Source of the DNA: a virus
Reading direction: 5' to 3' (one strand)
IMG/VR virus record: IMGVR_UViG_3300017782_003844
Span: 1 to 38,046 of that record
Length of the DNA: 38,046 nucleotides
The position numbers and the translations under genes were made by a program. The notes beneath the pieces are model-generated. The model was given only the letters and a program-made list of their open reading frames with translations, had not been told where the DNA came from and ran no database searches. This document shows, piece by piece, positions 6,001 through 36,972 of this stretch. Position 1 is the stretch's first letter. Every line of letters begins with the position of its first letter.

Positions 6001-8932
6001 TGCTTCTAGCCAGTCTACAGCTGCAGGTAACTCTGCGAGCGCTGCAAATGCTTCTAAACTGTCAGCGAGTGCGGCTGAAACCGCTGCGGAGCTTGCTGAA
6101 ACCAATGCAGTTGCTGCAAAAAATACTGCATCAAGTGCAGCTGCCTCTGCATCCTCTAGTAAGGTGTTAGCTGCTAGTTCTGCAACTACGGCGGACAATT
6201 CTGCAAGCGCCGCAGAAGCAGCAAGAGACTCTATGGTTCTGCACAACTATGCTTACAATGGGGATGCGGCAAAGGATCAACTACCTGAATATTTTCAGAG
6301 TAGTGCATGGGAAACCACTACGGCTCAAGCAAAAGTAGGAAGTAGATCTTTTAGATTGTCATCTAGTGGCTTAACTACAACTAACCCAGATATATTCCAT
6401 AGTCCATCCGCTGTTGATTTTCCTGCGATTGCAACAGGAGATAAATTTACTTGGGGTGCTTGGGTATATGTAGATGGGTCCGATACTGGTAATATTTCTA
6501 TTGGCTTTGCAGGAGATGGCGGTTGGGGTACAAGTGCGGCGGGGGTTCGTAATCAGTGGGTGTTTGTTACTGCAACAGGTACTGCAGGCACTTATCCTGT
6601 CACAAACCAATTAGTAAGGTTGGAGATTAGAGAAAATATAAATACTAATCATCCTAATGATAATAATGTATATATTGATCATCTTCAAATAGTTGCGGGA
6701 GAGGTAGACTTAACAACGGTAACTACTAGCTACGGAGCTTCTCAAGGTTCCTATGAGGCAACTCTTTCTGCTTCAGCTGCAAATACGTCTGAAAGCAACG
6801 CAGCAACAAGCGCAAGCTCTGCTTCTGCCTCTGCAGCTGCATCGAATAGTAGTGCTCTCTCAGCGGTTGCTTCTAGAGATACTGCTTCTTCTGCAGCAGT
6901 AAACTCTGGTAACTCTGCAAGTGCGGCAAATACCTCGAAAGAAACAGCATCTGCTAGTCAGACTGCTGCGGCTAACTCCGCTTCTGCGGCTAACTCATCC
7001 AGACTTGCTGCATCTGCATCTTTCACTGCTGCATCAAACTCAGCTTCTTCGGCTAACTCATCTAGAGTTGCTGCTGGAGTTTCCGCAGGGGCATCAAACG
7101 ATAGTGCTTCAAGCGCCGCGGCTAGTGCCAGTGCTGCTGGAGCATCTGCTACTGCGTCTAACTCATCGAGATTAGCCGCATCGTCACAGGCTACTACGGC
7201 TGGTAATTCAGCTTCTGCGGCTCTTGTGTCTAAACAAAGTGCCTCTTCTTTTGCAACAAATGCTGCATCTTCGGCTCAAGCAGCTATCTTTGATGGAAAA
7301 TTACTCGAAGCCCGAGTTACGAGTGGACTAAACGGACATTATGTAGACAGCGATTGGTTCTTGTGTACACTAGGGACTACAAGCGTTCCTGCTTATGTTG
7401 TTTCTTTTATAGATAATGTAAATATCTATATGGAGAATATGTCAAGCGGAACTGTTTATACTGTTAAACTAGAAGCAGCTAAATATACAAACTATAATAT
7501 CCCAACTGAGAGCGGTCAGAGTGGAACCGGACCCTGGAGAGTTTTTGCTTCAGGACCTATTGTATGTAAGCATGGAGACGGGTATATGGGTGCTCCTGCT
7601 AACTTCTCTGGCCAGTTCTTAGGGCAGTATGCAAACCGATACTATCCAGTTGATATATTTCTATTTAGTCCCCAAGGAAAGGCTACAGTAGATGTATATT
7701 TCAGTGAAACCCTAACAGGGTTTGATGAAAACTCTTCGGTGCATCATACAATTACTATCCCTGACGGTGGTTATTATCAGTGGCAACAGGATGTGGATGC
7801 AAGTAGCTCACAAACTTCTGGTAATGCTACATACTTATTTAAGTCTGATGTAAAAATCTCTGGAATATTTAAGCCTGATGGCGGAGATTATCAGCTAATG
7901 GTTCCTTTGACTAATGGGGAAGTAGTAGGTAATGATTACTCTGATAACGGTGGGTATCCTTACTTTGATAATAATGCTACTAATACTACAGTTACTAATA
8001 CTGCTGCTGATGGCGGAGCACGGTACTATGTAAACGATGATGAGAACTTCTGGTTTATGAGTTCTAACACAGCAGACGGTGCTGGTGGTGACGCAGAATT
8101 CGGTGTACCTAGGCAAGGATTATCAGATTACTACATATGGGCAGAGCCTGATCTTTCTAACTTCCGTCTTTCTTCGGCAGAGCCTGCTGAGATTGTAGTT
8201 ATGAAAGCAGATGGAACAGTTTTATATAATATAGATCACAGTGCTGCAAGTACTACAGCTCCTTTATTCCATCAAGAGGGTTCAGCGAGCGGTAATACCA
8301 ACATTAATACAGGAGGTGGCCCTTACCGATTCATAGGTACGGCACCATTCCATCTTACTGCACAGGAAGGCGGAGATGATGACGAAACAACTCTTTTAGG
8401 GGCTCGTCAAGATAAACTAGATCAGGGATCTGGTGCGATTAAAGCAATAGCACAGCAGTCTCTCACTCTAACATCTGCTGTTGATAGTAATGTTACTACT
8501 ATTTCTGCGCAAGCGACTACTATAAATGGATTAGAAGGTCAGTATACTGTTAAGATTGATAACAACAATCATGTATCTGGATTCGGACTTGCAAGTACCA
8601 ACACAAACGGTACCCCTACATCTGCATTTATGATTAGAGCAGACAGGTTTGCAGTAGTAGACCCAGCATCTAGTGGCAGTCTTACTACTTCTCCCGATGC
8701 GGCAGATATACCTTTTGAGATAGTGGGTGGAGTTACTAAAATTAAGAATGCTAACGTAGGTTCTTTAAGTGCTGGAAATATTGCTGCTGATGCTATTCGA
8801 TCTAGTGAATTACAGATATCAGCAAATACAGACAACCAAAGTTCTAGTATGTTCTTTGATGGTACCAATAATTCTATTAAGATATATGATAGTAGTGGTA
8901 ATATTAGAGTTAGGATAGGTGCTTTGTCATAA
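2..8932 (+). CDS. Giant J-like tail tip / host-specificity protein, 5' partial
   Basis: The reading frame is open to the left edge of the window, so the GTG at 35 is probably internal. The first visible residues (GEYIIRVRTVSTSGNYSDF) look like the end of a fibronectin type III domain, as in lambda J-type tail tip proteins. About 2,975 codons follow. Long Ala/Ser-rich, probably coiled-coil segments (nt about 850-1450, 2100-2580, 3110-3330, 3860-4340, 5050-5290, 5950-6230, 6750-7290) separate beta-rich modules. Three modules share the signature GD-x-(F/W)-TW-x-x-WVY and NQW-x-FVTGTGT (nt about 2590-3090, 3340-3830, 6240-6745); they resemble carbohydrate-binding jelly rolls. Two others (about 1480-2080 and 5290-5940) resemble each other (FVTND-TFGEAY against FFVTND-TEFGNAY). 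The C-terminus (about nt 8530-8930) resembles the DUF1983 end of J proteins (YTVKIDNNNHVSGFGLAS, then IRADRFAVVDP). Probable role: host recognition at the tail tip. Receptor binding by the beta modules is inferred. Confidence 0.82.
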   Translation, partial: EGGEYIIRVRTVSTSGNYSDFKSTTYIYDDIFDENIVRMPLGIPKGAISTAQGSLSTTSPITYSFPADARMASLADPFNPVVLSSVSQDVSQISADIDHFLLLDHSVPDVILVRLDDSTFNNTPFYRDAGDGSATIASSMTSIGTVSIDANSSNLTGSGTSFLSTIKQGDVINLSGSDSPTSGDSAIVTAIANDTSLTLDRGFSTAKSSITGYRAGLRLDPEKDTIFARVLKTGSTITLENFINTNYEFDGTSLTVDSAGTISIPDGGVDTDQLAANAVTTAEIESQAITSALLEATLAASISSTAVQVESLSAALGSAESAASAANAASIAAAAALVSQLAASTYNTAVAAAADSVSATRVLTECAATSASIFAAAAAASASIAEISKNTASADKVAASAFAASASAFATASEAAKNSASGHVVTASSFATSASDDATAAASSASSSLASASTATVQAAAAASSSTLSANSRSAVDAAKIEAEMVLANLMPSIVKSPTTSWADDPHSASVGLNSDNTVLNDQSFHGSFVTNDATFGEAYVFTAGNNNSFGPSQLVPFDDDKVYRLTVQHRVSTDNSQGSTTTRFTLGFTEYTDGVADSTNDNVQPLFLDRTSAQGAQTSILYVSRRDLSGVTGYVQSSSNNEWWHQNAQSNNTQIGFQVRNLTSSFHNGSGSQNGANAVHEMLVEDVTAVIDAIQQADDAATSAAASLSSSQAASASRSSASASATAAESSRQSASTQAANAANSSSSAVVAKETASSSAASAASSATLSATAKDNSVSAAGASANSASAALSSSQAASASRSSASASATAAESSRQSASTQAASAANSSSSAVAAKETASSAAATAASSATLAAAARDTIVYQSYAFDGTFPDSTKPQWTGGTTDSSISSTYAKFGSNSLTVGGTNTASVDIFDSTRIPDQFPALSIGDTWTWGFWVYIDGTGTTNETFGFAGDGGWATATTATRNQWVFVTGTGTAANQAANTLGVKLELRSSPLATNDTAIYIDGVIVVKGDVDLTNVSVDDTAVKSAYDAGLSASAALSSAQAASASKSSASASATAAESSRQSASTQAANAANSSSSAVAAKETASSAAANAASSATLSASVRDSIVSQNLVGDSEVTIDGLLNITGEGWATNYWERSSTQAKNGTYSAKGKTALFADQFAEIYDTDIPMVTGDKFTWSAWVYKDFSQDVTLQFQQFSGWAADTVDTTNQWQFVTGTGTVPSGSGVGNPLILDLRNHDSLSSGGIFVDNLTIVRGDQDLSTILTDDSATTNRLLGINSESSAAASATASLSSSQAASASRSSASASATAAESSRQSASTQAANAANSSSSATVAKETASSSAAGAASSATLSAAAKDNSVSAAGASANSASAALSSSQAASASRSSASASATAAESSRQSASTQAANAANSSSSAVVAKETASSSAAGAASSATLSAAARGQSLLDSQGIANAGFEFGETGVDTVPAGWEAEGQRSDFPNDMGFFTSPVNTNSTYGSTKAYGANDTNAQSGHWIRLSKYFLAEASQTFTASLDVYFADTMANANNRDPEWIDEDDVFKIYNWYDADGALLSQTAVSSATSQYNQDNSSWVSGSSKAPQDTWFTYTSSTVTAPANTASVRIDLILIDDQPGNVGGDALVDYATWAVGGNFRGYIDDFVLTSSGGVVEINKGNIDVVLSAAASLSSAQAASASRSSASASATAAQLSRLAASTAQTAAEAAETASVSAKNTASSAAASASQSESLTSTAVVEARTEVAAIGEYLFVNPETWIHTPQSYGLGTDKRFIGNSSNMTSTYADFFVTNDTEFGNAYLPTKALNDSISLRKVFTYASDKVWLVKAKMRTVDDGDTTGTGVYSTFGINGWTADGTRITANPDLNNSQYFAWTDTVSDGVQEHAHVFAGSDYVDADLEALPGIIAQTQTSPQGGWGRVVVVSTGSNTPSFIGFQIRHNGSSTTDGQSAIGSFEIIDITESVKAEIEGVAAADSASSAVISAASASSQSTAAGNSASAANASKLSASAAETAAELAETNAVAAKNTASSAAASASSSKVLAASSATTADNSASAAEAARDSMVLHNYAYNGDAAKDQLPEYFQSSAWETTTAQAKVGSRSFRLSSSGLTTTNPDIFHSPSAVDFPAIATGDKFTWGAWVYVDGSDTGNISIGFAGDGGWGTSAAGVRNQWVFVTATGTAGTYPVTNQLVRLEIRENINTNHPNDNNVYIDHLQIVAGEVDLTTVTTSYGASQGSYEATLSASAANTSESNAATSASSASASAAASNSSALSAVASRDTASSAAVNSGNSASAANTSKETASASQTAAANSASAANSSRLAASASFTAASNSASSANSSRVAAGVSAGASNDSASSAAASASAAGASATASNSSRLAASSQATTAGNSASAALVSKQSASSFATNAASSAQAAIFDGKLLEARVTSGLNGHYVDSDWFLCTLGTTSVPAYVVSFIDNVNIYMENMSSGTVYTVKLEAAKYTNYNIPTESGQSGTGPWRVFASGPIVCKHGDGYMGAPANFSGQFLGQYANRYYPVDIFLFSPQGKATVDVYFSETLTGFDENSSVHHTITIPDGGYYQWQQDVDASSSQTSGNATYLFKSDVKISGIFKPDGGDYQLMVPLTNGEVVGNDYSDNGGYPYFDNNATNTTVTNTAADGGARYYVNDDENFWFMSSNTADGAGGDAEFGVPRQGLSDYYIWAEPDLSNFRLSSAEPAEIVVMKADGTVLYNIDHSAASTTAPLFHQEGSASGNTNINTGGGPYRFIGTAPFHLTAQEGGDDDETTLLGARQDKLDQGSGAIKAIAQQSLTLTSAVDSNVTTISAQATTINGLEGQYTVKIDNNNHVSGFGLASTNTNGTPTSAFMIRADRFAVVDPASSGSLTTSPDAADIPFEIVGGVTKIKNANVGSLSAGNIAADAIRSSELQISANTDNQSSSMFFDGTNNSIKIYDSSGNIRVRIGALS
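2124..2375 (+). repeat. Ala/Ser linker repeat, copy A
   Basis: A 252-base unit begins with ctctttctagttcacaag and encodes SSSQAASASRSSASASA followed by ATAAESSRQSAS-type sequence. It is directly followed by copy B with the same start, so A and B form a tandem pair with an 84-residue period. The DNA itself is nearly identical between copies, which suggests recent duplication rather than selection on protein composition alone. Confidence 0.85.
2376..2575 (+). repeat. Ala/Ser linker repeat, copy B
   Basis: Second copy of the linker unit. It starts exactly 252 bases after copy A and ends where the first jelly-roll-like module begins. It differs from copy A by scattered third-position changes, for example agtcgt for agccgt. 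Confidence 0.8.
3126..3325 (+). repeat. Ala/Ser linker repeat, copy C
   Basis: A single copy of the linker, lying between the first and second jelly-roll-like modules. It is more diverged at its 5' end (agtgctcaagcagcgtcag) but closely matches the others through the AAESSRQSASTQAANAANSS part. Confidence 0.75.
3885..4136 (+). repeat. Ala/Ser linker repeat, copy D
   Basis: This copy and copy E repeat the A-B arrangement with the same 252-base spacing. The first 80 or so bases read as in copy A apart from rare changes. The A-B pair as a whole therefore seems to have been duplicated to D-E. Confidence 0.85.
4137..4340 (+). repeat. Ala/Ser linker repeat, copy E
   Basis: Second member of the D-E pair. 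It ends where a different beta-rich module begins (GFEFGETGVDTVPAGWEAEG), so the same linker connects to different downstream domains in copies B, C and E. Confidence 0.82.
5061..5140 (+). repeat. Ala/Ser linker repeat, partial copy F
   Basis: Only about the first 65-80 bases of the unit match the other copies (ctctttctagtgcacaagc onward). After that the linker continues with unrelated Ala-rich sequence, which suggests a truncated or diverged copy. Confidence 0.7.
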
Positions 8933-10168: not shown

Positions 10169-10339
10169 CTACCCCCAATTGTGTATTATGTTTGCCATAA
10201 TCATGATGGCGCAACCAAGATTTAAGAGTAAAATAATACTTCGTACTATAGTTATATAGGTATCGTACTCTTCCGTTTTTTCATCTGCATAACTACCTAA
10301 CGAGTATTTCCAGACTTTAATAAACTTACTATCCTTCAC
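10169..10339 (-). CDS. Small membrane protein between nrdA and thioredoxin
   Basis: A 56-codon frame from a GTG that overlaps the end of nrdA by 11 bases (GTGAAGGATAG). It stops two bases before the thioredoxin ATG and so fills exactly the only gap in the nrd cluster. The N-terminal half is polar (KDSKFIKVWKYSLGSYADEK). The C-terminal half is one hydrophobic helix (SIILLLNLGCAIMIMANII). A purine-rich AAGGA lies about 12 bases upstream. It is probably a single-pass inner membrane protein. I do not recognise its function; the position suggests co-expression with dNTP synthesis. Confidence 0.7.
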   Translation of the reverse strand: MKDSKFIKVWKYSLGSYADEKTEEYDTYITIVRSIILLLNLGCAIMIMANIIHNWG

Positions 10340-12104
10340 AAGCCACACATCCTTCTTCGTCCATAGATTCGAAGATTCTTTCTCTAAGCACTTCGTCAGA
10401 TACTGTCTCTGCTCTTTTCATAGCTTCACTTCGTAAATAGTACAAAGTTTTTAGCTTTTTCTTCCACGCCATCATATGAACAGAGTGTAGCTCCTGCTTG
10501 GACACATTTGCAGGAAAGAATATATTTAATGACTGACTTTGACAAATTTCTTCTTGTCTGTCAGCTGCCATATCAATTACCCATCTTTGGTCAATCTCTA
10601 CTGCAGTTTTAAATACATCTTTAGTCCAATCGTCTAGAAAATCCAGATGCTGTACTGAGCCGCCTTTAGTGATAATATCTTTCCACACTTCTTCTGTATC
10701 CATGCCTATATCGCGTAAAACATCTTCTAGGTACTCATTCTTCTGTAGGCTAGTGCCACTTTTTGTCTTTTGAGCAAATGCATTTGCACGATACGGCTCG
10801 ATACTTGGACTTGTATTTCCGCAAATAATACTAGAAGAAGCGTTTGGAGCAATCGCCATAAGATGACAATTTCGTACGCCAGTACCCACAGCATCGGGGG
10901 CTTCGCCTCTTTGCATTGCCAAGTCTTTAGTTGCACGTACTGCTTCGGCTTTGATATGCTTAAACATTGCCATATTCTTGCCTTTTGCCATTGCACTTTC
11001 AAACGGAATATTTAACCTTTGTAAGTACGCGTGGAACCCCATCGCACCCAAGCCAATACTTCTTTCTCTCTCTGCACTAAATCGTGCTTTTTCAAGCTGA
11101 GAGGGGGCATTTCTGATAAAGTGTACAAGAACATTGTCAAGCATTCGCACTAAATCAGGAATAAAGTCCTCATTGTGTTTCCACTCATCGTATTCTTCCA
11201 AATTTACACTTGATAGGCAACAAACTGCTGTTCTTTCCTCGTTTGTTGCAAGCGTAATCTCACTACACAAATTAGACTGAGTTACCTCAAGTCCTAGTGA
11301 TTTTTGGCAGTCAGGCAACCCCGCCTGGACTGTATCACCGAACATTACATAGGGCTCTCCTGTCTCTACTCGATTCTGGATCAATTTTACCCAAAGTGTC
11401 TTAGCGGAAACAGTCTTAGTAACTTTACCACTGTGTGGATCTACTAGATCCCATGAGTCATCGAAACCTTCCACTTTAGTAGCATTTTCGATAATTTCCA
11501 TAAATTTATCAGATATTACAACTCCGTGGTGAAGATTAGTGGACTTGCGATTAACATCCCCGCCTGTGGGCTTACGAATATCAAGAAACTCTTCAACCTC
11601 TGGGTGTGAGATGTCCAAATATGCTGCATAACTACCTCTTCTTGTTACACCTTGCGAGAAAGCAAGCATTTCTGCGTCAACCACTTTCAAGAAGGGAATT
11701 ACTCCAGTTGACTCTGAACCGCTTGATGTTTTAGATCCTACACTTCGTACAGAACTCCAAACTCCTCCGACCCCGCCACCGACTGAAGAAAGAAAAGCAT
11801 TCTCAGTATAGTGATCAGTAATACCTTTTCTAGAATCATCTACATAATTCAAGAAACAACTAATAGGCAGACCTCGTGTTGTACCTCCATTGGAAAGTAT
11901 AGGAGTACTAAACATAAACCACAATTTACTAGCATAGTCATATAGTCGTTGGGCATGACTCTCATCGTCTGCAAACGCCATCGCAGCTCGGGCAAATGCC
12001 TCTTGGGGAGATGTTTCGTCCCCTACCATATATCTGTCCTCTAGTGTTTTAATACTAAATTCTGATAGGTATCTATCTCTACGATAGTCAATTTTAATAT
12101 TCAT
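10329..12104 (-). CDS. nrdA: Class I ribonucleotide reductase, alpha subunit
   Basis: 591 residues, against about 760 for E. coli NrdA. The protein starts directly with the catalytic barrel region and has no recognisable N-terminal ATP-cone, so dATP feedback inhibition is probably absent. Catalytic features are present: the cysteine in LPISCFLNY (C83), NLCSEI (the Asn-Cys-Glu site), the partner cysteine in AVCCLSSVNL, the tyrosine pair in LYYLRSEA, and a C-terminal redox pair CVAC (C586, C589). It reduces ribonucleoside diphosphates to deoxy forms together with NrdB. It overlaps the exonuclease gene by 11 bases (ATGAATATTAA), consistent with coupled translation. It lies far downstream of P1. 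Confidence 0.96.
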   Translation of the reverse strand: MNIKIDYRRDRYLSEFSIKTLEDRYMVGDETSPQEAFARAAMAFADDESHAQRLYDYASKLWFMFSTPILSNGGTTRGLPISCFLNYVDDSRKGITDHYTENAFLSSVGGGVGGVWSSVRSVGSKTSSGSESTGVIPFLKVVDAEMLAFSQGVTRRGSYAAYLDISHPEVEEFLDIRKPTGGDVNRKSTNLHHGVVISDKFMEIIENATKVEGFDDSWDLVDPHSGKVTKTVSAKTLWVKLIQNRVETGEPYVMFGDTVQAGLPDCQKSLGLEVTQSNLCSEITLATNEERTAVCCLSSVNLEEYDEWKHNEDFIPDLVRMLDNVLVHFIRNAPSQLEKARFSAERERSIGLGAMGFHAYLQRLNIPFESAMAKGKNMAMFKHIKAEAVRATKDLAMQRGEAPDAVGTGVRNCHLMAIAPNASSSIICGNTSPSIEPYRANAFAQKTKSGTSLQKNEYLEDVLRDIGMDTEEVWKDIITKGGSVQHLDFLDDWTKDVFKTAVEIDQRWVIDMAADRQEEICQSQSLNIFFPANVSKQELHSVHMMAWKKKLKTLYYLRSEAMKRAETVSDEVLRERIFESMDEEGCVACEG

Positions 12105-16387: not shown

Positions 16388-17010
16388 GCGATGTTGAACT
16401 CGTCTTCAATGCTTTCGTCAATATCACCTACGGATTCTTCTCGAATTTCATCTAGCAATGCTTTCTGTGCATCAGGAGTAGGTCGTGCCATAACATCATC
16501 CATAGACTTCAGGTCGGCAATAGCTTCTTTCTCTGAGTCAGACAGTACGCGGTGCTTGCACTTCAGTACTTGCAGTTGATATTCTACGTTATAAGGCAAA
16601 GGCCCAGTCTTTACTCGCTTGAACTTAACGTCCCAGCCAGTATCAGGATCGGTAGGATCACCAAGATCTTCAGCTGCAGTTAGAATTGCTTCAAATAGCT
16701 TCTTTTTCAAGTTAATAACTTTAACTTGACCGCCGTCAATGCACTGCATAGCGTAGCTCCAGCCACACTTTAGATCTGGGTAGTACTCACGAACCCAATC
16801 TTTTTCTTTATTGTTGAATCGCTCTTCGTTGCGATCAAATGATAGACACTCAAAAGGAATGTTCTTACCATTTTTACCTTCCAGCCAGTATACATAGCGA
16901 GCGAGTACATCGCCAACTAAGCGTACTTCGTTGTCTCCATCTCGGTAAGAGTAAGATGAAATTGAGGATTTTTGGGCAGCGCCCTTTGATTTGTTAAATG
17001 AAATTGCCAT
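16384..17010 (-). CDS. Single-stranded DNA-binding protein
   Basis: 208 residues. A basic N-terminus (MAISFNKSKGAAQKSS) precedes a core with many aromatic and basic residues (RYVYWLEGKNGK, GWDVKFKRVKTGPLPYNVEY). The protein ends in an acidic tail (DIDESIEDEFNIA) like those by which phage and bacterial SSBs recruit partners. No zinc motif like that of T4 gp32 is seen. The architecture and its place directly upstream of sbcDC support an SSB that coats unwound DNA. The gene overlaps the preceding stop by one base (TAATG). The family assignment rests on overall pattern rather than a single diagnostic motif. Confidence 0.75.
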   Translation of the reverse strand: MAISFNKSKGAAQKSSISSYSYRDGDNEVRLVGDVLARYVYWLEGKNGKNIPFECLSFDRNEERFNNKEKDWVREYYPDLKCGWSYAMQCIDGGQVKVINLKKKLFEAILTAAEDLGDPTDPDTGWDVKFKRVKTGPLPYNVEYQLQVLKCKHRVLSDSEKEAIADLKSMDDVMARPTPDAQKALLDEIREESVGDIDESIEDEFNIA

Positions 17011-17414
17011 TAGTGTGTATTCTCCGTTCTGGCTTCTTCGTATTTGAAGTGAAGTCGTCCTTCCTCATCAATAAGAAGTAGTCTGTTGTTTTCGTAAAGA
17101 CCTATGTCCACATCACAGTGGAAAAGGTCGAGGGTTGTTGTCCCAGTAGCTTTATAATCTGCGAGGGAACGCAGAGAAGCTAAGGCGAGATACTGGGCGA
17201 TCTCACTATAGCTATATCTATATGCGTGGAATAAGAGGACTTCAGGATTCACAAGGAAAGAGTGCCCTACAAAACTGGTAAGAGTATACTTATACATCTT
17301 ATCGTGTCTGTTGAGGGGTATCTGTTTTGTTGTCATCATTTTAAAGATAAGGAAGATAGCAAGGGAATTTCCTGCCGTCTTTTCAAATATCTTTTTCCAA
17401 TCAAATAGAAGCAT
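17010..17414 (-). CDS. Conserved phage protein, function unknown; start overlaps promoter P1
   Basis: 134 residues from the first ATG. I cannot assign a function. The body contains HAYRYSYSEIAQYLALASLRSL, which looks helical. The start is a problem. The ATG (17412-17414) abuts the -10 box of promoter P1, so RNA from P1 would begin inside the gene. The ATG has no ribosome-binding site, and no other in-frame ATG, GTG or TTG exists before ATGATG at residue 26. Either the gene is read from RNA coming from the upstream helicase unit, or translation starts at residue 26 (17339). The first 25 residues (FDWKKIFEKTAGNSLAIF) look like genuine protein. Confidence 0.72.
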   Translation of the reverse strand: MLLFDWKKIFEKTAGNSLAIFLIFKMMTTKQIPLNRHDKMYKYTLTSFVGHSFLVNPEVLLFHAYRYSYSEIAQYLALASLRSLADYKATGTTTLDLFHCDVDIGLYENNRLLLIDEEGRLHFKYEEARTENTH

Positions 17415-25537: not shown

Positions 25538-26257
25538 TTAAGCGGAAGCTTTTTCTTTCTTAGCTGCGCCATCATAGTCAGAGGCAGTGAGTCCACGACG
25601 AGTAAGCATAGTTTTTACGCCTCGTGCAGTCTTGCCAATGGTTTCTGCGATAGCTTCTACAGTCATACCGGTAACATCAATATCTTCCAACGGATCAGCT
25701 GCAGCGCCTTTAGTATTCTCTTGACGAGGAATAGCAGCGATATCACCTGAACGAAGCAAAGACAAAGCCTTACCACGGATGCTGTTTACAGAGCGGTCAA
25801 GTGCTTCGGCGATTTGCTCAACGAAAGCACCATCAGATACCATGCTAACGAAAGTAACTTCTTCGTCAGATGAGTAAGTGCGGACAGCCTCTACCTTAGG
25901 TGCAGGCTTAACATGACCAGTCAGTTCCATAGACAAAATCTTGCCTTGGATTGACTTAGGGGAAAAGTTTCCACCTTCAAAATGCTCAGCGATTTGAGCA
26001 TAAGTGTACTCACCGCTATTGTCAGAGACAAAAGCTGCAAGGGTTGCTTCTTGAGCATCGGTAAAAGATTTACCGCCAGCTGCTGAAGCGAGTTCTACAT
26101 CGAAGCCCATCTTGCGAAGTTTGCTAGATACGGAACGAGTAGAAGTTTCAAGGCTTTCTGCTGCGCCAGCAACAGTAGCTTGAGATACAGGTGATTCATC
26201 ACCTACGAAAGTTGTAAGAGCATCGGTACGCTCATCAGTCCACTTAGGAAGTGCCAT
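25538..26257 (-). CDS. Multi-repeat Myb/HTH-like DNA-binding protein
   Basis: 239 residues from the ATG at 26257, which has GGAG nine bases upstream; the TTG 15 bases earlier is inside that site and is rejected. The protein is built of about four diverged units of 45-60 residues. Examples are PKWTDERTDALTTFV with SVSSKLRKMGFDV, KSFTDAQEATLAAFV with KSIQGKILSMELTG, TYSSDEEVTFVSMV with NSIRGKALSLLRSG, and MTVEAIAETI with RGVKTMLTRRGLT. Each looks like a three-helix Myb/SANT-type or other HTH unit ending in a recognition-like helix. It is placed between ligase and helicase genes. Likely a DNA-binding structural or regulatory protein; no homologue is asserted. Confidence 0.75.
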   Translation of the reverse strand: MALPKWTDERTDALTTFVGDESPVSQATVAGAAESLETSTRSVSSKLRKMGFDVELASAAGGKSFTDAQEATLAAFVSDNSGEYTYAQIAEHFEGGNFSPKSIQGKILSMELTGHVKPAPKVEAVRTYSSDEEVTFVSMVSDGAFVEQIAEALDRSVNSIRGKALSLLRSGDIAAIPRQENTKGAAADPLEDIDVTGMTVEAIAETIGKTARGVKTMLTRRGLTASDYDGAAKKEKASA

Positions 26258-26261
26258 TTGT

Positions 26262-27011
26262 TTATTCTCCAATAAAATCTAATAGATTAGTTATGATTTG
26301 TATGCCAGACTCTCTGGCTTTTTTAGTTTTAGCTGACTCAGTGCCTGATTCATTAATCAAGTGAGTACAGTCTTTAGTTAAACTGCTTTTAACAGTATAG
26401 CCAAGGGCTTGTAAAACTTCAGTAGCTTGCGCTTTGGTTTTATAGCTAGAGAGTTTGCCTGAAATACAAACTGTCCCTGCCGAAACGGCAGACTTAGTAG
26501 AAGTAATACTGAAAGTATAATCAAAAGGAAAATCTCCTTCTTGAAAATCCCAGTGATACCAATCTAACAAGTTTTGGGTTGCTGTTGGGCCTAGGCCTGC
26601 TTGCTCACACGTGTCCTTGCTTAACTCAAATAAGTTATTAATTGTGCATGACAGCTTTTTTGTAGCACTGCTACCTATCAACGGGATACCCATTGCTGGT
26701 AACACAAGCTCTAGCGGAGCAGAACGAGATTTCGTAATCTCTGCGTAGAGCTTGGTTGCCAATTTCTCGGAACCTAGACGCTCAATAATGGCTTCTTCTG
26801 TCAATCCGTAGATTTCAGATGCTTGACCTAGTTCGAGCTTAGATATAGAAGAAGGCCCTAAGCCTTTGATTTTCAAAACCTTAGCGAAATGCTCGATAGA
26901 CTTTTGTAACTTAGAACCACAACTTACATTATGGCAGTACAGTAAATCATTTATAAACACAAGATCAGAACTACAGCTAGGGCAGATCGTGGGGGCTTGT
27001 ATCTCGCGCAT
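26262..27011 (-). CDS. NAD-dependent DNA ligase, C-terminal subunit
   Basis: 249 residues matching the C-terminal half of bacterial LigA. A four-cysteine zinc finger opens the protein (CPSC, then CHNVSC). Helix-hairpin-helix repeats follow (LKIKGLGPSSISKL, AMGIPLIGSSATKKL, AGLGPTATQNLL). A BRCT domain ends it (GTVCISGKLSSYKTKAQATE, then SLTKDCTHLI). The adenylation half is a separate gene immediately upstream, so ligase activity should need both proteins, as known for T5, which also has a two-gene ligase. P3 lies just upstream of the start, and GGAGAAG gives a good ribosome-binding site. Confidence 0.93.
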   Translation of the reverse strand: MREIQAPTICPSCSSDLVFINDLLYCHNVSCGSKLQKSIEHFAKVLKIKGLGPSSISKLELGQASEIYGLTEEAIIERLGSEKLATKLYAEITKSRSAPLELVLPAMGIPLIGSSATKKLSCTINNLFELSKDTCEQAGLGPTATQNLLDWYHWDFQEGDFPFDYTFSITSTKSAVSAGTVCISGKLSSYKTKAQATEVLQALGYTVKSSLTKDCTHLINESGTESAKTKKARESGIQIITNLLDFIGE

Positions 27012-27038: not shown

Positions 27039-27067
27039 ATTATATTAAAAATCAGAATAAAAGTCAA
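27039..27067 (-). promoter_or_regulatory. Promoter P3
   Basis: Minus-strand TTGACT, 17-base spacer, TATAAT, preceded by AAAATAGTTC. The -35 box contains the TGA stop codon of the ligase adenylation gene (27064-27066). It drives the ligase C-terminal subunit, the HTH-repeat protein and possibly the helicase. Confidence 0.9.
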
Positions 27068-28005
27068 GAACTATTTTTTGGGAGGTCAACCCTGGACAAA
27101 ATCCGAGGTATAATTTCTCCGCTCCGAATAACCTCTACTGTACATCCGATCTCTAAATCTAACGAACGAATATACTCGATGTTGTGTAGAGTGGCACGAC
27201 TAACAGTAGCCCCACCTACCTCTACAGGGTCAAGTATGGCTACGGGAGATACAACTCCTGATTTACCTACTTGCCACACAACATCCAGTAATTCTGTCGA
27301 CACGCCTTTCTGTTGTGTCTTTAAAGCAAATGCACCACGAGGATGCTTGCTTGTGTGTCCTAGCTTATTATACTCTCTGTTACAACGAAGGCGGTATACA
27401 GTGCCATCGGTAGGATACGCACGCGCATCGAACTTATCTACTGTAAGTAACCTCCAACGTCTTAACTGAGCAAGAGTATCCTCGTAAGATACACCAAGGT
27501 GCGGTGTAGCATCATATGCTACAAACACAAGTGGTCGAGTTTTAAACTCTTCCAAGTCATTGAGGCCTAGCGACCCCGATGCGAAGTTACGAGAGTTAGG
27601 AACACTACTTGGAGCAACAACTTCGCCAGTAACTTGAACAAGACCAGTATCATTGATCTCGGTCTCTACTAACTGACGCATCTTATCTGTAATATCACGA
27701 CCTTGAACACCATCTCCCCGAGTGAGTGCGAGTTCAAGATTGCCGTCAACGTACAGAAGAGATACTGCTGCACCATCTAGTTTAGGAGTACTTATACAAT
27801 CATCCAAAAATAAGGGAGCTTTTGCTAAATCAAAACACTTCTGCAAAGAATACATCTGGTACGCGTGCGAAACCGCATCTGTAACAGTGTAGCCCACTTT
27901 ACTATAGTTGTGTTTATCTGCTAGAAGATCGAACTCAGCATCAGAGATAGCTGGAGTCCCTTCATAGTACAACTTGCTCATCTTATCTAAAAAATCTTGT
28001 ATCAT
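27064..28005 (-). CDS. ligA: NAD-dependent DNA ligase, adenylation and OB subunit
   Basis: 313 residues covering the N-terminal half of LigA. A shortened NMN-binding (Ia) region contains YYEGTPAISDAEFDLL. The nucleotidyl-transfer core holds the adenylated lysine in TPKLDGAAVSL, then TRGDGVQGRDIT and VTGEVVAP. The OB fold contains DPVEVGGATVSRATLHN and GCTVEVIRSGEIIPRI. The protein stops right after the OB fold; zinc finger, HhH and BRCT parts are in the next gene. It seals nicks using NAD+. AGAGG upstream of the ATG and promoter P4 support this start. Confidence 0.95.
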   Translation of the reverse strand: MIQDFLDKMSKLYYEGTPAISDAEFDLLADKHNYSKVGYTVTDAVSHAYQMYSLQKCFDLAKAPLFLDDCISTPKLDGAAVSLLYVDGNLELALTRGDGVQGRDITDKMRQLVETEINDTGLVQVTGEVVAPSSVPNSRNFASGSLGLNDLEEFKTRPLVFVAYDATPHLGVSYEDTLAQLRRWRLLTVDKFDARAYPTDGTVYRLRCNREYNKLGHTSKHPRGAFALKTQQKGVSTELLDVVWQVGKSGVVSPVAILDPVEVGGATVSRATLHNIEYIRSLDLEIGCTVEVIRSGEIIPRILSRVDLPKNSS

Positions 28006-32214: not shown

Positions 32215-32814
32215 TTACTTAGCCGTAATCCTTTTGTCGTAGTCAGCATAGTCTTCGTTCCACCACCCAGGTTTTTCTCTACCGGTCCAACTAGCAAAAG
32301 TAGCTTTATCAAGATGATAGTAGTCACGATATGATTGTATGGGATTGTCATAGTCCTTTAGTTCCTCGGGCATTGCGAGTCCGAATTCGGTGAATCCAAG
32401 TCTCGGTAAATTCCGCGGCTCTGGTAGCTTGTTAACCACTTCCACAATCGACTTGTGTTGTTTCGCATAGCGATAATGATATTCGTCATTAAGAGCGTTA
32501 CCATAGCAGTGTGTCCATTCAAAATTATCTAGTGACGAACGTACCCAGATAGTGCAAGGGTGGTTGTACATCATTGGTAGATAAGGGGTTAGTGGTCGTT
32601 CTTCCATAGGAAGATGTTTAATATCTTTCTTCAAAGCATTGAGATGATCGCGCTCTTCTTTGTTGAGAGCACGAGGTACAAAGCCTAGGTGTTCGTCTAC
32701 CCAGATAGCAGTACACATTAGCTGTGCTACTTCTAAGGGCATTTTTACAATATGTTTGTCAACATGATACTCGGCACACTTGTCGAGGTCATTGTCAAGG
32801 TAAAAAAGATTCAT
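32215..32814 (-). CDS. Conserved phage protein of unknown function
   Basis: 199 residues. The N-terminus MNLFYLDNDLDKCAEYHVDK, continuing HIVKMPLEVAQLM, is a pattern I associate with a widespread family of uncharacterised phage proteins. Other conserved-looking blocks are YNHPCTIWVRSSLDNFEW and YRDYYHLDKATFASWTGRE. Several His, Cys and Asp residues (C13, H17, H21) could bind metal. It is first in the P6 unit, next to thyX, which suggests nucleotide or DNA metabolism. I cannot confirm an enzymatic activity. Confidence 0.85.
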   Translation of the reverse strand: MNLFYLDNDLDKCAEYHVDKHIVKMPLEVAQLMCTAIWVDEHLGFVPRALNKEERDHLNALKKDIKHLPMEERPLTPYLPMMYNHPCTIWVRSSLDNFEWTHCYGNALNDEYHYRYAKQHKSIVEVVNKLPEPRNLPRLGFTEFGLAMPEELKDYDNPIQSYRDYYHLDKATFASWTGREKPGWWNEDYADYDKRITAK

Positions 32815-33832: not shown

Positions 33833-34187
33833 CTACTTCCTCCGTAGTTACCTTGCGATAATATACAATAACTTCATTCATCTGTCGTATATATCGCTTG
33901 ATTTCCTGCATATTATATGCCATTAGTTCATAGTCTCCTGGAGTCATCGCAAAGAAAACTAAAGTGTCTGTTTCCTTCTCAACTCTCTCCATAAACTCAT
34001 CAAAATTTCTTTCTGATACTACATACCACACAGGCTCTTTTAGATCTATGGCAGCAGGCAGTACCGGTTGCGTGATTTTACGCAATACTGGTTTTGTTAT
34101 TATCTCTACTTCTCTAGGGGGAAGTAGGCTGCAGCTCGATAGTAGCATTGAGCTCGCTAAGAGCAGCGCTATCTTTTTCGATTCCAT
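33792..34187 (-). CDS. Outer-membrane lipoprotein, probable o-spanin
   Basis: 131 residues from the ATG at 34187, which has an ideal AAGGAGG seven bases upstream. The N-terminus is a lipoprotein signal: KK, a hydrophobic core IALLLASSMLL, then the lipobox LSSC with the acylated Cys at residue 19. A proline-containing spacer (SLLPPREVEIITKPVLRK) and a helical end follow. The gene starts inside the coiled-coil gene in another frame (74-base overlap), and the lysozyme follows. That nested order is the classic spanin arrangement, so an outer spanin is the best guess. Confidence 0.75.
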   Translation of the reverse strand: MESKKIALLLASSMLLSSCSLLPPREVEIITKPVLRKITQPVLPAAIDLKEPVWYVVSERNFDEFMERVEKETDTLVFFAMTPGDYELMAYNMQEIKRYIRQMNEVIVYYRKVTTEEVDEPTSSVRTVEDR

Positions 34188-34524
34188 CAAACACCTCCTT
34201 GGTGGCTTTGTTGACTCTAGTTTCTATCAACCCAGGTTTTGCAGCTGCAAGTTTTGTAAGATTATGTCTCTTGAAAATATCCAAGTATCTATTCATCTCG
34301 CTCTGTATTTCATTATTCTTAGTAGCCATGTTATTCAATGCTTCTGTTTGAAGAGTAAAGTCCTCTTGCAGAGCATCATAAGCAGCTACTTGTTCTTGAT
34401 GACGTAGCTCAAAAGCCATGTTTAATTGTTCTAATTCATACAATTTATTCTGAGTTGTTTTGTAGTACAACCCACCGACGACAACGCCCGTAATCATTAT
34501 ACCTGTCATAAAAGAATTAAGCAT
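34114..34524 (-). CDS. Membrane coiled-coil protein, probable i-spanin
   Basis: 136 residues from the ATG at 34524, chosen because GGAGAAAACT precedes it; the longer frame upstream has no such site and crosses a hairpin. One N-terminal membrane helix (FMTGIMITGVVVGGLYY) is followed by a long periplasmic coiled coil (LYELEQLNMAFELRHQEQV onward) and a conserved-looking RHNLTKLAAAKPGLIETRVN. The type II topology, the coiled coil and the overlapping lipoprotein gene fit an inner spanin. With the lipoprotein it would fuse the two membranes at lysis. Confidence 0.75.
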   Translation of the reverse strand: MLNSFMTGIMITGVVVGGLYYKTTQNKLYELEQLNMAFELRHQEQVAAYDALQEDFTLQTEALNNMATKNNEIQSEMNRYLDIFKRHNLTKLAAAKPGLIETRVNKATKEVFDGIEKDSAALSELNATIELQPTSP

Positions 34525-34540
34525 AGTTTTCTCCAAAGTT

Positions 34541-34562
34541 GCGGGGCTCGTTAGAACCCCGC
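34541..34562. other. GC-rich hairpin between small membrane gene and i-spanin
   Basis: GCGGGG, a partly paired middle (plus-strand CTCGTTAGAA), then CCCCGC form a strong 6-bp GC stem that can extend by TC/GA. No T-tract follows on the minus strand (AACTTTGG). It lies 17 bases upstream of the i-spanin start, whose ribosome-binding site follows closely. Probably an RNA stability or attenuation element rather than a full terminator. Confidence 0.6.
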
Positions 34563-34568
34563 GGTGGT

Positions 34569-34676
34569 TTAAAGTAGTGGTCTGATGGCTAAAGCAACAG
34601 GGGTAAATACTAAACACAGTATCCCTGCTGACCAAGCTAGATGCCCGCCCACTTCTTTGATACTAGTAGTATCCAT
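34569..34676 (-). CDS. 35-residue membrane protein, holin candidate
   Basis: A short frame with an excellent AAGGAGATAAA leader. It begins MDTTSIKEVGGHLAW and continues as one hydrophobic segment (SAGILCLVFTPVALAI) ending in RPLL. It lies directly upstream of the spanin-like and lysozyme genes and there is no other obvious holin in the lysis block. It is smaller than most known holins and has one membrane helix, so the holin call is tentative. Confidence 0.62.
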   Translation of the reverse strand: MDTTSIKEVGGHLAWSAGILCLVFTPVALAIRPLL

Positions 34677-34685
34677 TTTATCTCC

Positions 34686-35090
34686 TTATGAAATTGTAAC
34701 CTTTACTGGTTGCAATTCAAGAGGAATTTCTTCATGCAAATCAATGCAAAGCAATCCGCGTTCCATGTAGGCTTTTTCAAGCTTTACATGCTCGCTTACA
34801 CCAAACTGTCTAGTAAAACATTTACCAGACAACCCCTTATACATATAGGACTCATTTTCGTTTTCTAACTGCTTTTTCTTACCATTTACAGTTAAGATCC
34901 CCTGATGGAGTATTATTTCAACGTCGTTCTTGTCCCAGCCAGGTATGGCTAGTTCTACTCTAAACCCATCTCCACCTACACGTACAATATTAAATCTAGG
35001 GTATTCCCCTTTTGGAATTTGTGTGCTGTCTACGAAACGGTCAAAACCTAGCCAGAATTTCTGGAGGTCAGCCAATGCTAAATTAGTCAT
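34686..35090 (-). CDS. Hsp20 small heat shock protein
   Basis: 134 residues. The N-terminal arm (LQKFWLGFDRFVDS) is typical of phage and bacterial Hsp20. An alpha-crystallin domain follows: PRFNIVRVGGDGFRVELAIP, then GWDKNDVEIILHQGILTVNG, and LEKAYMERGLLCIDL (the GxL-type strand). A short C-terminal extension ends in VKVTIS. It acts as an ATP-independent chaperone, perhaps for virion proteins late in infection. AAAAGGAGAAC gives a strong ribosome-binding site. Two tandem GNRA-type hairpins occur in its leader. Confidence 0.94.
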   Translation of the reverse strand: MTNLALADLQKFWLGFDRFVDSTQIPKGEYPRFNIVRVGGDGFRVELAIPGWDKNDVEIILHQGILTVNGKKKQLENENESYMYKGLSGKCFTRQFGVSEHVKLEKAYMERGLLCIDLHEEIPLELQPVKVTIS

Positions 35091-35160: not shown

Positions 35161-35205
35161 TTAAATGAGATCTACGGCTAGGAACTCCCAACCCTGAGGC
35201 TTCAC
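35161..35205 (-). CDS. Possible 14-residue peptide
   Basis: A GTG start overlaps the TGA of the preceding gene (GTGA) and opens a frame VKPQGWEFLAVDLI before TAA. The overlap style matches other coupled genes here, and no other use of this stretch is seen. It is too short to judge by coding statistics. It could be a micro-peptide, a remnant of a longer C-terminus, or chance. Confidence 0.25.
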   Translation of the reverse strand: MKPQGWEFLAVDLI

Positions 35206-35486
35206 TCTTTGCCTTTCCACTTCTTATACAACTCTTTGGCTGCTTGAACTGGGTATTCTTGTAAGTCAATATTTTTTAGAAAGTTTAGTAAAGCTACTTC
35301 TCTTTCTGTAAAATTATCTTCAAAGTCAAAACTTACCTGAAAGTTTTCAACTTCTTGCCACTCTGGTACGTTTACCACTATAGGCTCTTCTTTTCCGAAA
35401 ATATTTTTCCAGTTATTCTCGTACTTAGTTCTATCTGATCCCACTCGAGGCTTATCGCCTTTTCCACCATGCCATTGATCGCTCAT
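35202..35486 (-). CDS. Phage protein of unknown function
   Basis: 94 residues from the ATG at 35486, with GGAG five bases upstream; the earlier ATG lies in front of that site. The N-terminus is basic and glycine-rich (MSDQWHGGKGDKPRVGSDRT), the middle is acidic (FQVSFDFEDNFTEREVALLN) and the end is basic (LYKKWKGKE). It overlaps the zinc-ribbon gene by 4 bases (ATGA). The H-G-G-K-G-D-x-x-R start is a pattern I have seen in small phage proteins, but the function is not known to me. Confidence 0.8.
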   Translation of the reverse strand: MSDQWHGGKGDKPRVGSDRTKYENNWKNIFGKEEPIVVNVPEWQEVENFQVSFDFEDNFTEREVALLNFLKNIDLQEYPVQAAKELYKKWKGKE

Positions 35487-35740
35487 ACTTTCTCCATAGT
35501 CCATCGACTAAATTCTGATTTACATACTTGACACTGCCATAGAGATACGCCATCGTACTCTGGTGTCTCAATTCCTACTACATTTTTTCCAAAGTGTTTA
35601 GGGCTCTCTGGTTTGCACCCATATAAAGCTGCAGTCTGAAATGCTTTACGATGACTATAGCCTTTTCTTTCAAAGTATTCTGTTATGGTTTCTTCTTCTT
35701 CCCACGCAGTATTACAGTGAGGACAATTCTTAGGAGTCAT
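35483..35740 (-). CDS. Small zinc-ribbon protein
   Basis: 85 residues. CPHC near the N-terminus and CQVC near the C-terminus (SLWQCQVCKSEFSRW) form a likely four-cysteine zinc site that brings the two ends together around a helical middle (SHRKAFQTAALYGC). Such ribbons bind nucleic acid or protein partners. It begins three bases after the stop of the small membrane gene and is coupled to the next gene by ATGA. Confidence 0.8.
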   Translation of the reverse strand: MTPKNCPHCNTAWEEEETITEYFERKGYSHRKAFQTAALYGCKPESPKHFGKNVVGIETPEYDGVSLWQCQVCKSEFSRWTMEKV

Positions 35741-35743
35741 GTC

Positions 35744-35893
35744 CTACTCCTCGTCTTCTACTTCTAGCACACCCGTGGATATTAGGTAGTTCACTGCTGC
35801 TTCTATACCCGTTTGACGTCCTAGGTGGAAAGCAGTAAGTGCGCACCCAAACATACAGAAAGCGTAAACGGCAAAGCCGCTCATTGTAGTCAT
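35744..35893 (-). CDS. 49-residue membrane protein, first gene of the P7 unit
   Basis: A short frame starting MTTMSGFAVYAFCMFGCALT, with one hydrophobic helix. It continues AFHLGRQTGIEAAVNYLI and ends in an acidic tail EVEDEE. The leader CGAGGAGATATT is an ideal ribosome-binding site, and P7 lies directly upstream. Probably a single-pass membrane protein with a cytoplasmic tail. Function unknown; as first gene of the unit it should be well expressed. Confidence 0.75.
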   Translation of the reverse strand: MTTMSGFAVYAFCMFGCALTAFHLGRQTGIEAAVNYLISTGVLEVEDEE

Positions 35894-35925: not shown

Positions 35926-35954
35926 ATTATAACAAAATAAGGAATTCATGTCAA
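35926..35954 (-). promoter_or_regulatory. Promoter P7 (leftward)
   Basis: Minus-strand TTGACA, 17-base spacer, TATAAT, with upstream AAAATATTTC. It drives the small membrane gene, zinc ribbon, Hsp20, lysis genes and ParB-like gene. It is divergent from P8, with the two -35 boxes 36 bases apart. Confidence 0.92.
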
Positions 35955-35990: not shown

Positions 35991-36019
35991 TTGACTTTTC
36001 ATTCATTATCCACTATAAT
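35991..36019 (+). promoter_or_regulatory. Promoter P8 (rightward)
   Basis: Plus-strand TTGACT, 17-base spacer, TATAAT, preceded by AAAAAAATCTC, the same extended pattern as the leftward promoters. It is the only plus-strand promoter of this type in the window. The first ATG lies at the predicted transcription start (36026). Confidence 0.9.
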
Positions 36020-36025
36020 AGAACC

Positions 36026-36211
36026 ATGAAAGAATATAAGAAGCGACCATGGACGCACGATGAACGAACGCTCCTCCGGAGTACATATCATATCGTCGAC
36101 AAAGAAGTGCTACAGAATCAATTCCCAGACAGAACTATGAACTCGATTAGAAAGCAGGTTCATTACTTAAAAAAACGCGGTTGGACATTTGACAAGAGGA
36201 AACTAATATAA
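36026..36211 (+). CDS. Small Myb-like HTH protein, probably leaderless
   Basis: 61 residues. RPWTHDERTLLRSTY, then VLQNQFPDRTMNSIRKQVHY, then LKKRGWTF form a compact three-helix unit resembling the Myb/SANT-like repeats of the two HTH proteins on the minus strand. The ATG lies six bases after the -10 box of P8, so translation would start at or next to the first base of the mRNA. There is no ribosome-binding site. A longer frame back to 35948 would cross the promoter and is rejected. As the first gene after a divergent promoter pair, it may be an early regulator. Confidence 0.75.
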   Translation: MKEYKKRPWTHDERTLLRSTYHIVDKEVLQNQFPDRTMNSIRKQVHYLKKRGWTFDKRKLI

Positions 36212-36417
36212 TGCCTATTAAATTTAAAGAATCAGTAAAAAGACGTGATGGATCTATCGACAACTATTATATCAAGGACACATCACTAAAGGAGCTACGA
36301 GCAGCTTTGGAGAATAGCAACACCAAACCTAAAGTTAAACAAAAAGTTAGAAATGAGTTAGTTCGTAGAGGAGCGAGTTTTACCTCCCCGGAGTTAGAAA
36401 AGGAAAGCAATGGCTAA
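36211..36417 (+). CDS. Small basic phage protein
   Basis: 68 residues starting MPIKFKESVKRRDGSIDNYY, continuing IKDTSLKELRAALENSN and ending in a basic helix (PKVKQKVRNELVRRG). The ATG overlaps the previous stop by one base (TAATG) with GAGG upstream. It is likely a small nucleic-acid- or ribosome-associated protein, judging only by charge and by its overlap with the bS21 gene. Function unknown. Confidence 0.8.
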   Translation: MPIKFKESVKRRDGSIDNYYIKDTSLKELRAALENSNTKPKVKQKVRNELVRRGASFTSPELEKESNG

Positions 36418-36592
36418 AGTAGTTGTAAAAAATAATAATGTAGAAGCAGCACTCAGATTACTTAGAAAGAAAACATCTGATATGCTGTACGAGGTGAGGG
36501 AGCGAGAGTATTATACTACTCCCTCTGAGAAACGAAGGTTAGCAAAACAAGCAGCTGTAAAGCGAGCCAAGAAAAAAGGAAAACAAGTATGA
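36410..36592 (+). CDS. rpsU: Ribosomal protein bS21 homologue
   Basis: 60 residues. The pattern VKNNNVEAALRLLRKKTSDM, then LYEVREREYYTTPSEKRRLA, then KQAAVKRAKKKG follows E. coli S21 (VALRRFKR, LAEVRRREFYEKP, AVKRHAKK) over nearly the whole length. It lacks the last ten or so residues of the E. coli protein. bS21 sits on the 30S platform near the anti-Shine-Dalgarno region and affects initiation. Phage-borne bS21 is known from aquatic phages, where it may replace the host protein to favour phage mRNA. It overlaps the preceding gene by 8 bases and the MazG-like gene by 4. Confidence 0.9.
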   Translation: MAKVVVKNNNVEAALRLLRKKTSDMLYEVREREYYTTPSEKRRLAKQAAVKRAKKKGKQV

Positions 36593-36972
36593 CACAGATT
36601 ACAAATTTTGAACTTGTAGGCGACTTCATGGAAGCATTTGGACAAGAGGTGTTAGATCAACCTACCTGGCCCGACTTTGAAACTAGAATGCTGCGCCTTG
36701 ATCTAATTGAAGAAGAGTATAACGAGCTGGAAACAGCTATTCATGAAAAAGATATGGTAGGAGTTGCAGATGCCCTTACGGATTTATTGTATGTTATCTA
36801 TGGAGCAGGTCATGCCTTTGGCCTCGACCTTGACGTATGTTTTAATGAAGTTCATAGAAGTAATATGAGCAAACTCGGAGAAGACGGACGTCCCATTTAT
36901 AGAGAAGATGGTAAGGTACTAAAAGGACCGGACTATTTTGAACCTAACTTAGAAGAACTTATTGGAGAATAA
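36589..36972 (+). CDS. MazG-like nucleotide pyrophosphohydrolase
   Basis: 127 residues of the all-alpha NTP pyrophosphatase group (MazG/HisE). The metal-binding acids are seen in RLDLIEEEYNELETAI (E-E-x-x-E) and VADALTDLLYVIYGAG (D-x-x-D). The C-terminus EVHRSNMSKLGEDGRPIYRE, then VLKGPDYFEPNL, is typical of phage members, as in cyanophage-type enzymes. It may remove non-canonical or excess (d)NTPs or alarmone-like nucleotides. It is the second pyrophosphohydrolase in the window. Start coupled to bS21 by ATGA. Confidence 0.9.
   Translation: MTQITNFELVGDFMEAFGQEVLDQPTWPDFETRMLRLDLIEEEYNELETAIHEKDMVGVADALTDLLYVIYGAGHAFGLDLDVCFNEVHRSNMSKLGEDGRPIYREDGKVLKGPDYFEPNLEELIGE

Follow-up and report, generated by a model that had tools for sequence, protein, structure and literature searches.

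A phage bS21 gene in an operon headed by a regulator-like gene with a predicted leaderless start

A phage bS21 gene and its operon

We analyzed the 38,046-base IMG/VR virus record IMGVR_UViG_3300017782_003844, which is classed as linear and is referred to here, over its whole length, as the window, with a focus on the gene for ribosomal protein bS21 at positions 36410-36592 of its plus strand. The gene belongs to a plus-strand operon with a sigma70-type promoter, in which the -35 box TTGACT (35991-35996), a 17-bp spacer, and the -10 box TATAAT (36014-36019) carry 1 mismatch in 12. A gap of 6 nucleotides (nt; 36020-36025) separates the -10 box from the ATG of the first gene (36026-36211), and transcription is predicted to begin on the A of this ATG or on an adjacent base; the product is a small, 61-residue Myb/helix-turn-helix (HTH)-like protein, and its start is predicted to be leaderless. 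This gene is followed by a Shine-Dalgarno (SD)-led gene for a 68-residue protein with no Pfam match at 0.01 (36211-36417), which overlaps the bS21 start, and directly after bS21 lies a gene for a MazG-like nucleotide pyrophosphohydrolase (36589-36972; PHROG 671, E 5.7e-40; Pfam PF01503, 2.8e-20).

The bS21 gene starts with ATG, ends with TGA, and encodes 60 residues, exactly where the original prediction, made from the DNA letters alone, had placed it. In hidden Markov model comparisons, the protein matched Pfam PF01165 over residues 3-53 (48.2 bits, cut-off 27, E 8.6e-13) and the NCBIfam equivalog TIGR00030 (S21p; 55.2 bits, cut-off 28.95, E 4.6e-15), and it also matched PHROG 21469, "ribosomal protein S21." When PDB chains were searched with phmmer, 34 distinct sequences were retrieved at E<=1, every one of them named S21/bS21 or mitochondrial S21, with a best value of 4.6e-6. 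An AlphaFold2 (AF2) model, computed from 18 sequences, comprises two helices (residues 11-33 and 38-59; pLDDT 83.6, pTM 0.39); with this model Foldseek gave four weak matches (E 0.17-2.1), all chains of ribosome structures, two of which (6i7v_AU and 8a22_Bt) are named S21/bS21m, the other two being 8a3l_U and 6xyw_Bs. The bS21 ATG is preceded by AAAAGGAAAGCA. Judged by its sequence, the 60-residue open reading frame (ORF) is a genuine bS21, and the presence of phage replication and lysis genes in the virus record bears out the claim that it is phage encoded.

The bS21 proteins of the window's group have diverged from the 26 distinct cellular bS21s with which they were compared, and the window protein and many of its relatives are 2 residues shorter between the helices. 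The basic C-terminal helix is retained, and by reading, Tyr35 is the last aromatic residue. In a tree of 69 bS21 rows and 73 columns, the 36 rows of the window's group fell together, with support of only 87/70; the branch of the window protein was long (0.94 changes per column), and the host lineage was not settled by this tree. The N terminus has what we take to be an alphaproteobacterial look. A tblastn search of 50,697 phage records with the protein gave no match at 0.01 and a single match, with an E of 9, at a limit of 10. The long branch might suggest a bS21 homologue that works outside the ribosome, but the near full-length match over both curated cut-offs, the preserved basic C-terminal helix, and the wide conservation of the protein in the group make such a function very improbable.

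The predicted leaderless start and its conservation

The usual distance from a -10 box to the transcription start puts the 5' end of the HTH mRNA at or next to the ATG. Since the ATG lies 6 nt past a near-perfect sigma70 -10 box, this mRNA should be leaderless, a call that is well supported by the sequence. Its start also had the weakest SD duplex energy of the 38 starts scored in the window (-0.2 kcal/mol), while an SD tetramer was present at all four scored genes downstream of it. An in-frame upstream ATG at 35948 was rejected as the HTH start; in ten relatives with the HTH gene, the longest frame instead opens with the TTG that belongs to the -35 box.

As for the HTH protein itself, the Pfam Myb_DNA-binding model matched 5 of 14 homologues, and a RuBisCO_small model matched 6 of the 14, at best with 0.013; PHROG 323, "D5-like," matched the protein at E 0.0034. 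The AF2 model has three helices (pLDDT 87.5). A tblastn search of the 50,697 phage records gave 5 matches with E from 0.1 to 7. Two weak resemblances were also observed, one in Foldseek to the alphaproteobacterial regulator GcrA (PDB 7ye1_G; TMq 0.55, E 6.6) and the other to a Brevundimonas phage "cell cycle regulator" (hit H36, E 3).

A search with bS21 identified the gene in 12 viral contigs at 53-61% identity, and an alignment search extended this to 46 contigs. When the ORFs of the 12 contigs were read, the HTH gene was found upstream of bS21 in 10, L008 being cut off and L013 lacking it; a MazG-like frame followed bS21 in 12 of 12, and an Hsp20-like gene lay on the opposite strand in 6. 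Three alignment scans with HTH sequences, seeded mostly from loci reached via bS21, returned 342, 167, and 167 overlapping loci, and the best 80 of each were examined. Merging by 210-nt sequence left 117 distinct loci, to which the window and L045, L052, and L053 (via bS21) were added for a total of 121; all of them share a common ancestry, and the counts therefore do not represent independent events. Among the best 80 of 342 loci in the first scan, the ATG lay 6 or 7 nt past the -10 box in all 80, and bS21 followed within 783 nt in 77, the remaining three being cut off within 742 nt. Across the 117 scan loci, the ATG lay 5-8 nt past the -10 box, and was thus called leaderless, in every case, and bS21 was downstream in 111.

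In the set of 121, the spacer was 17 bp throughout, and the -35 and -10 boxes were perfect in 79 loci and had one mismatch in 42. The gap to the ATG was 5-8 nt in 120 loci, in agreement with the claim that the operon's first gene appears leaderless; 119 of these were called by script, and L292 was added by reading (ATG at gap 8) because its match began at residue 8. The exception is L052, reached only via bS21, in which the HTH gene is led by a 25-nt gap with AAGGAAG. The start codon was ATG in all 120 loci whose match covers the first codon. By their first 56 residues, 111 different HTH proteins were present, and the 119 script-called leaderless loci had 54 different leader strings.

Mean pairwise identity of the -10 box was 1.00 in both the gap-6 (n=57) and gap-7 (n=58) loci, and that of the -35 box was 0.99 and 0.93, respectively; for the spacer it was 0.42 and 0.44 and for the leader 0.53 and 0.60, with L052, L316 (-10 box TATACT), and loci with a gap of 5 or 8 left out of these figures. 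The spacing from promoter to ATG is kept while the sequences of spacer and leader diverge fast. The base preceding the ATG was a pyrimidine in 46 of 57 gap-6 and 53 of 58 gap-7 loci, which is only mild support, since gap-6 leaders are pyrimidine rich across positions 2-6.

Of the 121 loci, 115 had bS21 downstream, and bS21 was absent from the other six contigs when their whole records were searched. Three of these (L087, L123, and L190) are truncated within 1,126 nt; the other three (L277, L280, and L288) keep the leaderless gene and have more than 2,660 nt of downstream sequence with no bS21 in the contig fragments, L277 resembling its relative L195 minus bS21. L013 (the same as L043) has bS21 behind a led first gene and no HTH gene. 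In L051 (2927-2994), a perfect promoter with TATAAT, 6 nt, and ATG precedes a 9-codon ORF (MKKINKEPI) that ends 3 nt before the bS21 ATG, which might be an eroded HTH gene with its leaderless start remaining.

These data bear on the idea that the operon is built around ribosome composition, with the leaderless regulator locked to bS21 in one circuit. In this view the HTH mRNA would depend neither on bS21 nor on pairing with the anti-SD and would be translated by ribosomes without bS21 or with phage bS21, and the regulator level would read the state of the host ribosomes, report their take-over, and time the infection. That 111 of the 117 distinct scan loci have bS21 after the leaderless gene fits such feedback, as does the ORF of L051, which stands in the HTH position directly before bS21. 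Published work is also consistent with it, in that ribosomes without bS1, uS2, and bS21 are selective for leaderless mRNAs (PMC4929434) and bS21 of Flavobacterium johnsoniae autoregulates via bS21-lacking ribosomes (PMC9976891). However, operon conservation alone can explain the linkage, and the scans were seeded with HTH proteins neighboring bS21. Moreover, L277, L280, and L288, although contig fragments, have the leaderless gene without bS21, in L052 bS21 accompanies an HTH gene that is led, and L013 has bS21 without an HTH gene, which argues against an obligatory coupling. We consider a circuit of this kind quite unlikely; mutual dependence of the leaderless gene and bS21 is possible, but loci in which only one of the two occurs weaken the case for it.

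Shine-Dalgarno use and other genes of the window

SD sites were scored at genes chosen by hand from the listed ORFs, taking the starts given there and leaving out 10169-10348, 17010-17414, 25538-26272, 34114-34635, 35202-35504, 35744-35893, and the plus-strand genes past 37171. An SD tetramer was present at 24 of 33 minus-strand starts and at 4 of the 5 plus-strand starts scored, compared to 25 of 157 internal ATGs used as a control; 25 of the 33 minus-strand starts paired with the 16S tail with an energy of -4 kcal/mol or stronger, versus 30% of the 157 internal ATGs. The phage therefore looks adapted to an SD-pairing host, and on the same counts we rejected the idea that it is a general leaderless or SD-less translator. 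The original prediction had pointed to minus-strand genes without ribosome-binding sites; such genes exist, with 9 of 33 lacking a tetramer and 8 of 33 falling short of -4 kcal/mol in pairing, but most of the genes scored do have a site, and SD-less mRNAs as a characteristic of this phage did not hold up.

Ordinary SD use would suit a simpler role, in which bS21, being loosely bound and exchangeable, is topped up by the phage with no mRNA selectivity, and viruses do tend to encode such dynamic proteins (Mizuno 2019, PMC6375957). The divergence of the group's bS21s from the cellular ones, together with the shortening between the helices in the window and many relatives, nevertheless exceeds what a plain copy would need, and we hold mere supply to be rather unlikely.

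Nine promoters with at most one mismatch were found in the window, eight of them on the minus strand, whereas shuffled sequence gave a mean of 0.4 (one strand tested). The minus-strand promoters at 35954, 32866, 30530, 28060, 27067, and 24088 are followed by a start codon with an SD-like leader, although the ORF after 30530 has merely 34 codons; that at 33067 is located within a gene, and the perfect promoter at 17443-17414 is an ambiguous case, its -10 box running straight into an ATG that may or may not be where the gene begins. As a control in the collected loci, we took 128 other distinct TTGAC[AT]-17-TATAAT promoters: the gap to the start was at least 12 nt in 95, 77 of which had an SD-like tetramer, and 6-8 nt in 20, with no start assigned in 13.

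Leaderless starts recur at other genes of the group and hence are not private to the bS21 operon. A weakly pyrimidine-dimer-glycosylase-like gene (32215-32814, minus strand; PF03013, E 0.0032, below cut-off) is SD led in the window and some relatives and has TATAAT, 6 nt, and ATG in others (L063, L065, L069, L071, L073, L077, and L093 bear on its start mode); as predicted from these arrangements, it is one gene family switching between led and leaderless modes. A further family with TATAAT, 6 nt, and ATG, represented by MNKEKVLIITMEECGEL / MKKLTQLVVTMEECGEL and MazG-like by eye, was seen on the minus strand of L089, L109, L112, L113, L116, and L120.

Next to the bS21 operon, a divergent perfect promoter (TTGACA-17-TATAAT, 35926-35954, minus strand) precedes, with a 32-nt gap and a GAGGAG leader, a gene that by eye encodes a small membrane-protein-like product (35744-35893, minus strand), and ORFs resembling it occur at the equivalent place in relatives. 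Beyond it on the minus strand is Hsp20 (34686-35090; Pfam PF00011, 1.4e-11; PHROG 432), a common neighbor of phage bS21 (PMC9723584). The identified neighbors of bS21 are HTH, MazG, Hsp20, and lysozyme, with no core structural gene among them in a view limited to 1.5 kb downstream, where the record ends.

Elsewhere in the window, the DNA polymerase is 43.6-45.3% identical to polymerases of Vibrio and Aeromonas phages, which we take to be T5-like, among the best 30 of 4,162 matching phage records. No tRNA was found in the window, Rfam gave no match to it at the gathering cut-off, and the count of GANTC sites (113 observed versus 137 expected) was uninformative. A first scan of genome contigs found no locus, and a second found a single contig, L060, from a Halieaceae metagenome-assembled genome; since L060 carries the small membrane-protein gene, it looks like phage DNA and does not indicate a host with any certainty. 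At the window start, a 2,976-residue open frame cut by the boundary (2-8932, plus strand) has many Ala/Ser-rich repeats and by eye is perhaps a tail or fiber protein. Two adjoining minus-strand ORFs (26262-27011 and 27064-28005), each with its own near-perfect promoter, by eye resemble two halves of a DNA ligase.

Interpretation and comparison with known systems

Taken as a whole, the reading that we favor, with moderate confidence, is that the phage bS21 retunes host ribosomes and that the leaderless start serves mainly to hold down the level of a regulator. A genuine phage bS21 would enter host 30S subunits beside the 3' end of 16S rRNA and would either shift mRNA selection or keep ribosomes bS21 replete during infection. 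The operon would be driven by the host-type sigma70 promoter, which suggests that it is probably expressed early; the leaderless start may hold the putative Myb/HTH-like DNA-binding regulator at a low level, as with acuR or lambda cI, and bS21 and MazG would be translated from their own SD sites downstream. In support of this, bS21 of the pelagiphage HTVC008M is incorporated into Escherichia coli 70S ribosomes (PMC6375957). In Flavobacterium and Francisella, the choice of mRNAs can depend on how much bS21 the ribosomes contain (PMC10931766, PMC9976891).

Several points weigh against this interpretation. E. coli ribosomes that had taken up the pelagiphage bS21 showed about 5% activity in vitro (PMC6375957); a productive retuning thus does not necessarily follow from incorporation. 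In addition, bS21 of another phage group is expressed late (Chen 2022, PMC9723584), which bears on the timing of the operon. Among the HTH loci, an SD tetramer was present at only 66 of 114 script-found bS21 starts, with a mean duplex energy of -5.5. The HTH assignment is weak, the best Pfam E value of 2.2e-4 having been obtained among homologues; the window protein itself passed no Pfam cut-off and had no Foldseek match at E<=0.001.

The original prediction had further proposed that more bS21 could lead to more leaderless translation. This direction is doubtful and is not the one expected from PMC4929434: it is the loss of bS21, along with bS1 and uS2, that is tied to leaderless translation, so added bS21 need not favor leaderless mRNAs.

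That phage bS21 may redirect ribosomes is already published (Mizuno 2019; Chen 2022). What is new is the proposed link to a leaderless start, and a phage module of a leaderless regulator with bS21 was not found described in the titles and opening abstracts of the open-licence papers retrieved. Phage bS21 has been reported in 1,310 genomes and large contigs and makes up 88% of the ribosomal proteins detected in uncultivated phages (Mizuno 2019, PMC6375957), and 900 published phages with bS21 have been surveyed (PMC9723584). The present group is a compact natural test system for the role of bS21 in phages: one mRNA combines one promoter, a predicted leaderless cistron, SD-led cistrons, and a bS21 that may alter their treatment by ribosomes. 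It is also an example of a predicted leaderless start that has retained its spacing across wide phage divergence, and the layout could be exploited in tests of viral retuning of bacterial translation.

Among cultivated phages, the Pelagibacter phage HTVC008M resembles the window in its bS21 N terminus (VVVKNNNVE; Mizuno 2019, PMC6375957) and in a heat shock protein gene near bS21. Unlike the window, it is a 147-kb myovirus in which a CobS gene precedes bS21 and no HTH gene is annotated over the 1.5 kb before bS21, and its bS21 is too distant to be retrieved by the window protein at E<=10. Five cultivated phages were compared by annotation, with promoters unscanned, and no HTH-like regulator was annotated in the 1.5 kb before bS21 in any of them: bS21 comes after a CobS/AAA/ClpX-type gene in HTVC008M, PA5oct, and SCTP-2, and likewise in Mosig with one short ORF between, while in Melnitz-3 it follows a tRNA gene.

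For the bS21 phages of lake Bacteroidetes, it has likewise been proposed that phage bS21 redirects ribosomes (Chen 2022, PMC9723584). Their bS21 gene, however, lies beside capsid and terminase genes and not in an operon with HTH and MazG, and their protein carries an aromatic residue where F. johnsoniae has Tyr54, whereas the window protein has none after Tyr35 and belongs to an SD-using phage. An occlusion of the anti-SD of the Bacteroidetes type was rejected, as the protein has no Tyr54-like residue (by reading, unaligned to the F. johnsoniae protein) and the phage uses SD sites. Autoregulation of F. johnsoniae rpsU (PMC9976891) shares with the window the bS21 content of ribosomes as a possible initiation signal; there, an extra-strong SD is found on the bS21 mRNA itself, whereas in the window the unusual start is leaderless and on another gene.

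In the acuR-acuI-dddL operon of Rhodobacter sphaeroides (PMC3017554), a leaderless regulator comes first, like the putative one of the window, and in both operons SD sites lie downstream. AcuR is a TetR-type repressor whose mRNA 5' end was mapped to the AUG, while the window has a Myb/HTH-like protein, a predicted start, and bS21 in the operon. The same source states that translation of acuR falls far below that of the SD-led genes that follow it and names lambda cI and Tn1721 tetR as further leaderless regulators. For the leaderless start, acuR is the closest parallel. We prefer two parts that would share one mRNA, a regulator held at a low level and a phage ribosomal protein.
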